From Nitrosarchaeum sp. (GTDB taxonomy: Archaea > Thermoproteota > Nitrososphaeria > Nitrososphaerales > Nitrosopumilaceae), in contig JAILWJ010000001.1 of NCBI GenBank assembly GCA_025699025.1, positions 630,391 through 694,390 on the forward strand: a stretch of DNA of 64,000 nt. Direction: 5' to 3'. A model generated the notes under the pieces. That model made no database searches. It saw only the letters and a program-made list of their open reading frames with translations, and had not been told where the DNA came from. Positions 20,972 through 48,907 of this stretch are shown one piece after another (within the stretch, counting starts at the first letter, position 1; each line of letters begins with the position of its first letter). Both the position numbers and the translations under genes were made by a program.

Positions 20972-21901
20972 ATGCAAGATGTGATAAACAGAATTGTTTC
21001 GTTTTTGCCAAGTGCGACCGAGTTACTATATGAACTTGGAGAAGAGGACAAAATATTCGGAGTCACTCATGAATGCAAATATCCAGAAGAGGCAAAAGAA
21101 AAGCCCAAAGTAATCAATTCAGTGATCAACTCAGAACAACTAAGCAGTAAAGAGATCGATGAACAGACATGCCAATTACTAAAAGAAGGAAAAGATATTT
21201 TTCTTCTAAATGAAGATACCATCAGAAAGGCAGATCCTGATCTAATTATTTCACAAGAAACATGTGAGGTGTGTGCAGCGTATACAAGCCAAGTAAATAA
21301 AGCAATCAAAATTATGCAAAAAAGACCGCTGCTTTATTCAATGAATCCCCATAATTTAGACGAGATTATTTTATCAGTGATAGAATTAGGAAAAATTCTT
21401 CAAAAAGAGAACAAGGCAAACGAGATTGCAAGTGCGTTAAAAAAAAGAATCCAAAAAATAAAAGATCTGAAAGTAGAACAAAGACCAAAAGTATTGGCAA
21501 TAGAATGGATAGATCCATTATTTACAGCAGGTCACTGGGTTCCTGAGATGATCGAAGTTGCAGGAGGACAAAACATGATCAGCAAAACAGGAGAACATTC
21601 CAGAAGATTAAGCATTGAAGAGATAATCAAATCAGATCCAGATATCATAATAGTTATGCCATGTGGGTTTGATACATACAGAACAATTCAAGAATACAAT
21701 CAAGTTTTAGACAAGGATGCATCATGGAAATCTCTAAGGGCGGTAAAAAACAACATGGTTTTTGGAGTTGACGCAAATTCATTTTTTAGCAAGCCAAGCA
21801 TCAGAACCATCACAGGGATTGAAGTACTAGCAAAGATCATTCAACCTGAAAAAACTATAGGCTTGGACATCCCAAGTAATTCATTTTTACATATCAAATA
21901 A
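20972..21901 (+). CDS. BtuF/TroA-like ABC-type substrate-binding fold protein without signal peptide
   Basis: This 309-residue protein begins RIVSFLPSATELLYELG, the typical first strand and helix of cobalamin/iron-chelate binding proteins (BtuF, helical-backbone metal receptor class). Later segments DPDLIISQETCEVCAAYT, KVLAIEWIDPLFTAGHWVPEM and SDPDIIIVMPCGFD also fit. Unlike true receptors it has no signal peptide or lipobox, so as written it would stay in the cytoplasm. No permease or ATPase is adjacent. A cytosolic cobalamin-related or metal-binding role is possible. An SD-like GGAG lies about 12 bp before the ATG. Confidence 0.8.
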   Translation: MQDVINRIVSFLPSATELLYELGEEDKIFGVTHECKYPEEAKEKPKVINSVINSEQLSSKEIDEQTCQLLKEGKDIFLLNEDTIRKADPDLIISQETCEVCAAYTSQVNKAIKIMQKRPLLYSMNPHNLDEIILSVIELGKILQKENKANEIASALKKRIQKIKDLKVEQRPKVLAIEWIDPLFTAGHWVPEMIEVAGGQNMISKTGEHSRRLSIEEIIKSDPDIIIVMPCGFDTYRTIQEYNQVLDKDASWKSLRAVKNNMVFGVDANSFFSKPSIRTITGIEVLAKIIQPEKTIGLDIPSNSFLHIK

Positions 21902-28790: not shown

Positions 28791-29076
28791 TTGTGTGAGC
28801 TGGAGCACGAAATGCTGCTACGGCAGAGGAAACTCCTCCCTCCATGCAGGAAATATGATCCGGAGATGGATAACCAGAGATGGTTGGCAACGGAACAGAA
28901 AAAATCCAACCTGGCGTACAATGATGGAAAAACCTGAGATTTCCAGAGAAGGAATGAAAAAGCCGCCCCATATGGAGCAAAGCCAAACAGAACTATACGA
29001 TCCTGCACCAAGTTCAGGTAGGCTGCAAAGCGTAATATCGTGAAAACAGAAGGAGGGTTACTCCCAGCACACACAA
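28791..29076 (+). ncRNA. rnpB: RNase P RNA, archaeal type
   Basis: This non-coding gene explains a 320-bp gap. Terminal helix P1 is visible: 28791-28797 (ttgtgtg) pairs with 29070-29076 (cacacaa), and 28799-28803 (gctgg) pairs with 29064-29068 (ccagc). Universal RNase P elements are present in order: GCAGAGGAAACTCC at about 28823-28836, GGATAACC near 28870, GGAACAGAAA near 28891, GGAGCAAAGCC near 28975, and the CR-V-like AAAACAGAAGG followed by GGGTTACTCC at 29043-29062. The order and wording match archaeal type A RNAs such as that of Methanothermobacter. Open frames drawn through it on either strand (for example 28781-29074 minus) are accidental. The RNA matures tRNA 5' ends with protein subunits encoded elsewhere. 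Confidence 0.93.
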
Positions 29077-44375: not shown

Positions 44376-44528
44376 GATATCTGAAGTTTGATGGAATTCA
44401 TAAAAACGTGCCGGAGCTCAGATCGTGAGACAAAAAATTACATCATTTACAATCATTACTCTAACTCTTCCTCATTGCTTCGGCAACCTTAGTGTACAGT
44501 GATTTGATAATAAGATAATGATTGAAAA

Positions 44529-44602
44529 TGGGATCGGCGAGATTTGAACGCGCGACCTCTGCGTCCCAAACGCAGAATCATACCAAGCTAGACCACGATC
44601 CC
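44529..44602 (-). tRNA. tRNA-Pro (UGG)
   Basis: Minus-strand sequence folds as a tRNA: acceptor 5' GGGATCG pairs with 3' CGATCCC; the D loop contains AGCTTGGTA; the anticodon arm CTGCG-TTTGGGA-CGCAG carries anticodon TGG (proline); the T loop is TTCAAAT. The discriminator is A and the 3' CCA is not encoded. One T-stem pair is a C-T mismatch. No intron is visible. A TATA-like CTTAAATT lies just upstream on the minus strand (about 44625-44632). Confidence 0.95.
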
Positions 44603-44617
44603 AGTAAATCGTAAAAG

Positions 44618-47040: not shown

Positions 47041-47601
47041 ATGCCACAAACAAAACCGATTGTAAGCGTGGAAAATGTCGTAGCCTCGGCTTCTGTAGAT
47101 CAGAAGATGGATTTGAATGAGATCACACGAACATTCCCAGATGTGGAATATCATCCTGATCAATTTCCAGGACTCGTCTTTAGATTAAAAAGTCCAAAGA
47201 CAGCTACATTGATTTTCACTTCAGGAAAAATGGTGTGTACTGGTTCTAAATCAGAAGAAATGGCACGTAAAGCAGTAAAAACAGTAGTTCAAAAACTTCG
47301 AAAGGGCGGAATTAAAGTTAAAAAAGACGCAGTAGTAGAAATTCAAAATATCGTAGCTTCAATTAACTTGGGCGGAAAGATACATCTTGAACAAGCAGCG
47401 AGGACTTTGCCGAGAAGTATGTATGAGCCAGAACAATTCCCCGGTCTCATTCACAGAATGCTAGATCCAAAGACAGTAATTTTGTTATTTTCATCAGGAA
47501 AACTTGTCTGTACTGGGGCTAAAAAAGAGCCAGACGTTTACAGATCTGTAAACAATTTACATGCATTATTAGAAGAAAAAGACCTAATGATCTATGACTA
47601 A
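47041..47601 (+). CDS. tbp: TATA-box-binding protein (TBP)
   Basis: The 186-residue protein consists of the two direct repeats that form the TBP saddle: the first contains FPGLVFRLKSPKTATLIFTS then GKMVCTG, and the second FPGLIHRMLDPKTVILLFSS then GKLVCTG. It begins at the ATG at 47041 (MPQTKPIVSVENVVASASVD). Short C-terminal acidic tail (LLEEKDLMIYD). TBP recruits TFB (encoded at 32.3 kb) and RNA polymerase. The intergenic region upstream carries a TATA box and an inverted repeat. Confidence 0.97.
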   Translation: MPQTKPIVSVENVVASASVDQKMDLNEITRTFPDVEYHPDQFPGLVFRLKSPKTATLIFTSGKMVCTGSKSEEMARKAVKTVVQKLRKGGIKVKKDAVVEIQNIVASINLGGKIHLEQAARTLPRSMYEPEQFPGLIHRMLDPKTVILLFSSGKLVCTGAKKEPDVYRSVNNLHALLEEKDLMIYD

Positions 47602-48339: not shown

Positions 48340-48353
48340 GTTATTTCAAAGGT

Positions 48354-48436
48354 TAGACTGTGACGGAAGTTTGGCAAATGCCATTAGAACTGGAGTTACT
48401 GTTCTGGATTTTAGGCATGTTGCCCATCACAGTCTA
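48354..48436 (-). ncRNA. Predicted three-stem structured RNA or leader element
   Basis: Perfect 10-bp outer arms: tagactgtga (48354-48363) and tcacagtcta (48427-48436). Inside, ggcaaatgcc (48373-48382) pairs with ggcatgttgcc (48414-48424), 10 pairs with one bulged G. Inside that, agaac (48386-48390) pairs with gttct (48401-48405). The arms could fold on either strand. Minus is favoured because a TATA-like sequence at 48457-48466 lies about 25 bp from 48436, which predicts a transcript beginning at the outer arm and reading into the 71-residue gene 14 bp further. It could be a cis-regulatory leader, an independent small RNA or a palindromic repeat element. Confidence 0.55.
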
Positions 48437-48456
48437 CTTCTAGACAAGCAGGAATC

Positions 48457-48466
48457 TAATATATTT
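48457..48466. promoter_or_regulatory. Symmetric TATA-like element between divergent genes
   Basis: The sequence TAATATATTT around 48457-48466 is nearly symmetric and could serve both strands. It is about 26-30 bp upstream of the ATG at 48491 (plus strand, SRPBCC gene) and about 25 bp upstream of the outer arm of the structured element at 48436 (minus strand). The assignment rests on spacing and AT composition only. Confidence 0.45.
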
Positions 48467-48490
48467 GATGCATAATTATGGTGTGAACAG

Positions 48491-48907
48491 ATGGCTGTAA
48501 TTGAAACATCAATTCAAATCAATGCGTCAAAGGACAAGGTATGGGATATTGTTTCAGATATTGACAATGAACCAAAATTCTGGAAGGGTACAAAAGAAAT
48601 AAGAAACATTTCAAAAGAAATGGGCATATTCAAGAGAGAAATCACCATAGCATTTAGAGATCAAAAATGCCTACAAGAAGTAAGATTACATCCTAAAGAA
48701 AGAGTCGAGACAATATTCACAAAAGGAATCATAGAAGGAACAAAGATAATCAATCTTAGTCATCAAGATGGAAAAACAAGACTAGATACAATATGGGACA
48801 TCAAATTATCAGGCATGATGTCAATGTTCACAGGAATGATAAAAAACCACATCAAAAGTGGAACTGAACAAGCATTGCAGAATATCAAAGAAGAAGCAGA
48901 GAGATAA
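48491..48907 (+). CDS. SRPBCC/START-like (polyketide cyclase-type) protein
   Basis: A 138-residue protein with the SRPBCC (Bet v 1/START) fold: MAVIETSIQINASKDKVWDI then VSDIDNEPKFWKGTKEIRNI, and a long C-terminal helix (TGMIKNHIKSGTEQALQNIK). The fold binds hydrophobic small molecules such as lipids or polyketides. Start ATG at 48491. The glycosyltransferase gene begins only 4 bp after its stop, so the two form an operon and the ligand may be a lipid carrier or glycolipid. Confidence 0.85.
   Translation: MAVIETSIQINASKDKVWDIVSDIDNEPKFWKGTKEIRNISKEMGIFKREITIAFRDQKCLQEVRLHPKERVETIFTKGIIEGTKIINLSHQDGKTRLDTIWDIKLSGMMSMFTGMIKNHIKSGTEQALQNIKEEAER

Follow-up and report, generated by a model that had tools for sequence, protein, structure and literature searches.

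The window analysed here is a 64,000-nt stretch of DNA from Nitrosarchaeum sp. Within it, a plus-strand gene (48491-48907) encoding a Polyketide_cyc2/SRPBCC-fold protein diverges from a minus-strand gene (P71; 48124-48339) encoding a 71-aa protein with no Pfam family. A preliminary description placed three nested arm pairs between these genes, and all three are present. The outer pair is perfect (TAGACTGTGA at 48354-48363 with TCACAGTCTA at 48427-48436), the second contains one bulge (GGCAAATGCC at 48373-48382 with GGCATGTTGCC at 48414-48424), and the inner pair is AGAAC/GTTCT. Folding of 131 nt of the minus strand gave -35.5 kcal/mol, compared with a mean of -21.6 kcal/mol for dinucleotide shuffles (z = -4.62; matched by 0 of 200 shuffles); the 87-nt core of the same strand folded at -31.0 kcal/mol (z = -5.41).

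We built a covariance model (R1) from an alignment of 20 sequences and a second model (R2) from 68 copies. The covariance-model match in the window scored 104.2 bits and covers model positions 1-87 (48350-48436, minus strand); the predicted 5' end is near 48436 and the 3' end is tentatively put at about 48350. The outer helix, P1, has 11 bp rather than the 10 originally described: its 5' strand (AGACTGTGATG, 48425-48435) pairs with CGTCACAGTCT (48355-48365), and compensatory changes occur at 9 of the 11 pairs. The additional pair, G48425 with C48365, itself covaries (G-C in 54 sequences, C-G in three). P1 and P2 abut on the 5' strand with no unpaired bases, leaving a one-sided 7-nt bulge on the 3' strand (AAACTTC, 48366-48372). 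This bulge is single-stranded in the model and contains near-invariant positions, with the consensus ANNCUUC, or ANNCUGU in genus g19. Based on the alignment, the 5' strand of P2 consists of GGCAA, a bulged C and ATGCC (48414-48424); its 3' strand is GGCAT TTGCC (48373-48382), and 5 of the 10 pairs show compensatory changes. P2 and P3 are separated by an internal loop whose 5' side (TAAAATCC, 48406-48413) is shortened in genera g2 and g22; this loop is therefore dispensable. In P3, AGAAC (48401-48405) pairs with GTTCT (48386-48390), with compensatory changes at all 5 pairs. P3 closes a loop of ~10 nt (AGTAACTCCA, 48391-48400), in which AACTCC is invariant in 58 of 58 distinct sequences. Overall, the model predicts a rod interrupted by a conserved, pyrimidine-rich bulge and capped by the invariant loop AACUCC.

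Covariation was scored on these 58 sequences at 26 base pairs. The preliminary description had proposed a search for compensatory changes, and these were found in all three helices, with 19 of the 26 pairs altered on both sides and at least two different Watson-Crick types across genera at 19 pairs. Standard pairs filled 93.5% of base-pair cells, versus 29-44% when partners were slid by 1-3 columns. The helices vary freely in sequence, whereas the apical loop is constant; fixed single strands combined with changing helices are what one would expect of an RNA that works through its loops. One-base indels between aligned copies speak against a reading frame and suggest that what is conserved is a non-coding RNA structure. 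Wobble pairing also agrees better with transcription of the minus strand (93.5% of cells paired when read as sense, 88.8% as antisense), although this support is modest. We consider it almost certain that the element is a gene for an RNA.

A DNA search detected the element in 27 of 101 genomes (the source genome and relatives), with a single copy in each. R1 identified matches in 145 of 250 genomes of the family, one per genome and distributed over 11 of 22 genera; the copy-number check proposed for the 83-nt unit thus gave one copy per genome. Only G185 gave two good R1 matches; its gene is divided between the ends of two contigs. All R1 matches in a class-wide sample (400 genomes) fell within the same family, and R2 gave no credible match in the genera lacking the element or in ten genomes from the order's other families. 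No match to the element was found in viral contigs. Based on named carrier records, which include Nitrosopumilus, Nitrosarchaeum, Cenarchaeum sp. and Candidatus Nitrosomaritimum, we take the carrier family to be Nitrosopumilaceae, the main marine family of ammonia oxidisers among the Archaea. Weak matches in four genomes (G036, G028, G030 and G220) were at chance level; when the first three of these loci were read, they had neither promoter nor loop. A further BLAST match (L027, in G058) was also set aside as a chance match lacking the invariant loop.

Upstream of P1 lies the promoter CATCAAATATATTAGATT (48453-48470, minus strand), whose TATA box (48458-48466) precedes model position 1 by 22-30 nt. 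The box, of TATA/BRE type and resembling (C)GCATTAAATATATTAGATT, is conserved at constant distance in nearly all of the 68 aligned copies, whatever the neighbouring genes. It is kept even where the element is 56-71% GC and where flanking genes differ; genus g19 has a T-rich variant, TATTAGA. Because archaeal TATA boxes have their centre some 26 nt before the transcription start, minus-strand transcription is inferred to begin near 48436. The earlier remarks on a TATA-like promoter and minus-strand transcription therefore agree with the position and conserved spacing of this box, and the wobble bias points to the same strand. The 14-nt promoter core, AAATATATTAGATT, has one exact match in the genome and is unique in the window, and its one-mismatch matches in the genome were at the level of a reversed-pattern control; we rejected the promoter as a regulon motif because its core is unique. 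Only 6 of 68 copies have a run of four or more T residues within 30 nt of P1, so formation of the 3' end may depend on processing. The stretch separating the element from the 71-aa gene shows no promoter of its own.

From the sequence comparisons, the element is most probably a free-standing gene for a small RNA of ~85 nt, predicted to be transcribed from the minus strand between 48436 and about 48350. The preliminary description had offered a cis-acting leader, a small RNA and a mobile palindrome jointly. Covariation in every helix, a promoter that moves with the element and varied neighbourhoods strongly favour the small RNA; the mobile palindrome does not stand, and the cis-acting leader fails as a general explanation.

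We propose that TBP and TFB would drive minus-strand transcription from about 48436 and that the RNA would fold into P1-P2-P3, in which the invariant apical AACUCC and the bulge ANNCUUC would be left exposed. The RNA would then act in trans through these exposed single strands: the loop would pair with GGAGUU-type mRNA sites, a subset of them at ribosome-binding sites, and an RNA-binding protein would be anchored on the bulge. As a whole, this proposal of a free-standing trans-acting RNA with loop, GGAGUU mRNA sites and a bulge-bound protein is the mechanism we consider most likely, and we judge it probable. Action in trans, taken separately, is quite likely, and a seed role for the apical loop is a tentative component, somewhat short of an even chance. 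The invariant loop could base-pair with GGAGUU by complementarity, and sites of this kind are masked by a loop of Methanosarcina sRNA154. Few ORFs in the window (10 of 54) have sequences resembling ribosome-binding sites, so a mechanism at ribosome sites would be limited.

The search for targets covered the window. A candidate GGAGUUA shortly before a btuF-like gene at 20972, named by eye from the sequence, was rejected because it is not conserved in 21 homologues; the upstream regions of cspA contain no GGAGUUA. In Methanosarcina mazei, sRNA154 is an archaeal intergenic regulatory sRNA in which one loop carries an anti-ribosome-binding-site sequence (PMC5867862). By that description, it resembles the element in being intergenic, structured, lineage-conserved and loop-based. 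It differs in belonging to another lineage, and the element here is a single rod of three stacked helices with a 7-nt bulge. Bacterial sRNAs that act through C-rich loops, such as the Rsa RNAs of Staphylococcus aureus, have CUCC/UCC single strands that could meet GGAG. The element shares such pyrimidine-rich CUCC/UCC single strands; it differs from the Rsa-type sRNAs in having an archaeal promoter and no terminator hairpin.

These comparisons strongly support a new family of structured RNAs that is specific to this lineage. Ammonia oxidation is driven by Nitrosopumilus-type archaea, which rank among the sea's most abundant microbes. We found no characterised small regulatory RNA from Nitrosopumilus-type archaea in the literature searched, and an earlier mention (Walker 2010, Shi 2009) is possible. 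About half of the family's genera have this covariation-supported RNA gene, for which both the promoter and an invariant loop are now defined; its target and partner are therefore directly testable.

A doubtful but possible alternative is that the RNA has a structural or scaffold role, in which the conserved bulge and loop would bind a protein, for example a CspA-like one, within an RNP serving housekeeping or stress functions, and no seed would be involved. The single strands of the bulge, internal loop and apical loop are conserved together in a single-copy gene, as such a role would allow. The cold-shock domain (CSD; PF00313) was found in 11 of 22 genera and shares ten of these with the RNA, and in a panel of 40 genomes it was present in 20 of 23 RNA carriers versus 1 of 17 non-carriers. 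The exceptions count against this reading: genus g15 has the RNA without the CSD, whereas genus g20 and many g19 genomes have the CSD without detectable RNA. In addition, both traits cluster with phylogeny, which they partly follow on an RpoB tree (the G026 row was disregarded as probably a wrong-frame translation), and an independent-pairs sign test was not significant. With phylogeny as a confounder, the co-occurrence of RNA and CSD, strong in the raw counts, is a lead and not evidence of interaction. We regard as improbable a dedicated partnership of the RNA with the CspA-like protein, in which the invariant pyrimidine-rich loop and the bulge would bind or titrate the protein in a cold- or stress-adaptation RNP confined to Nitrosopumilus-type lineages. 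The CspA-like cold-shock protein has 63 aa (G000:C1:755429-755605), and its genus distribution is nearly that of the RNA. In several g19 genomes, about 7.6 kb separates the RNA gene from the CSD gene, and in G015 the CspA-like gene lies 4 kb from the RNA gene.

The trans-acting RNA that we favour has also to be weighed against the possibility that the element serves the downstream P71-csaA operon in cis, as a riboswitch- or attenuator-like leader; the preliminary description had suggested such a leader for the 71-aa gene. A divergent SRPBCC-type gene on one side and P71-csaA on the other flank the element in genera g1, g11, g13, g14, g18 and g22. In genera such as g1, g11, g14, g18 and g22 it ends shortly before P71 with no intervening promoter visible; in g19, a gene for an unrelated protein of ~133 aa follows about 25 nt downstream. 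Both arrangements would suit a leader. The downstream genes nevertheless vary by genus: P71 is missing in g15, where csaA directly follows the element, and the neighbour is convergent in g2 (L058, a TBP gene), in g3 (a methyltransferase gene) and at one of two different loci in g12 (L023), leaving no downstream gene to control. Moreover, when the upstream regions of the 71-aa gene were read in eleven genomes, six had no detectable element and in four the element was unlinked. A cis role at P71 cannot explain the conservation of the element, because neighbours vary and P71 is found without it or unlinked to it. The covarying structure and the position 5' of a gene in the window recall riboswitches and attenuator leaders; these differ from the element in having a constant downstream gene, and neither an alternative terminator nor an anti-start helix was found to be conserved. 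We therefore consider this explanation unlikely. Since no second promoter is visible and T-runs are rare, read-through transcripts in genera such as g1, g11, g14, g18 and g22 probably carry the element as the P71 5' leader, and a local side role there is possible. The 71-aa protein family occurs in 13 genera of the family, beside csaA or elsewhere. The window also has a TATA-binding protein gene (47041-47601), 0.75 kb from the RNA gene.

Among known RNA classes, a diverged C/D or H/ACA guide RNA would agree with the element in size class and archaeal origin, as a small structured RNA, and many copies contain ACA within the P1 3' strand. This ACA is paired, and in g15 it changes together with its partner (ACG, GCG). 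An unpaired 3' ACA/ANA box after the stem is absent, with variable 3' flanks; the alignment lacks conserved C/D boxes (RUGAUGA, CUGA), and the internal loop has no tandem G-A kink-turn motif. In Rfam 15, the region of the window had no match at the gathering threshold or at E ≤ 5, and two divergent homologues searched at E ≤ 2 gave nothing above threshold. These results are in line with the earlier remark that no known riboswitch, H/ACA or C/D signature was recognisable, and they make a guide RNA very improbable. Archaeal SRP RNA was considered and rejected, since the element does not match RF01857; the genome's SRP RNA lies elsewhere (C2:203396-203706). Elsewhere in the window, an archaeal RNase P RNA (28795-29072) gave a clear Rfam match (RF00373), and a tRNA-Pro (TGG) is located at 44528-44603 on the minus strand.

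Long nested arms and loci that differ in some genera would fit a mobile palindromic (REP/MITE-like) element, but this reading has almost no chance of being correct, given one copy in all 145 carriers (bar the gene split over two contig ends), compensatory changes throughout, a co-conserved promoter and the absence of matches in viral contigs. Two MAGs labelled Nitrososphaeraceae (L136 and L154) bear a Nitrosopumilaceae-type locus, and their labels are therefore probably wrong.
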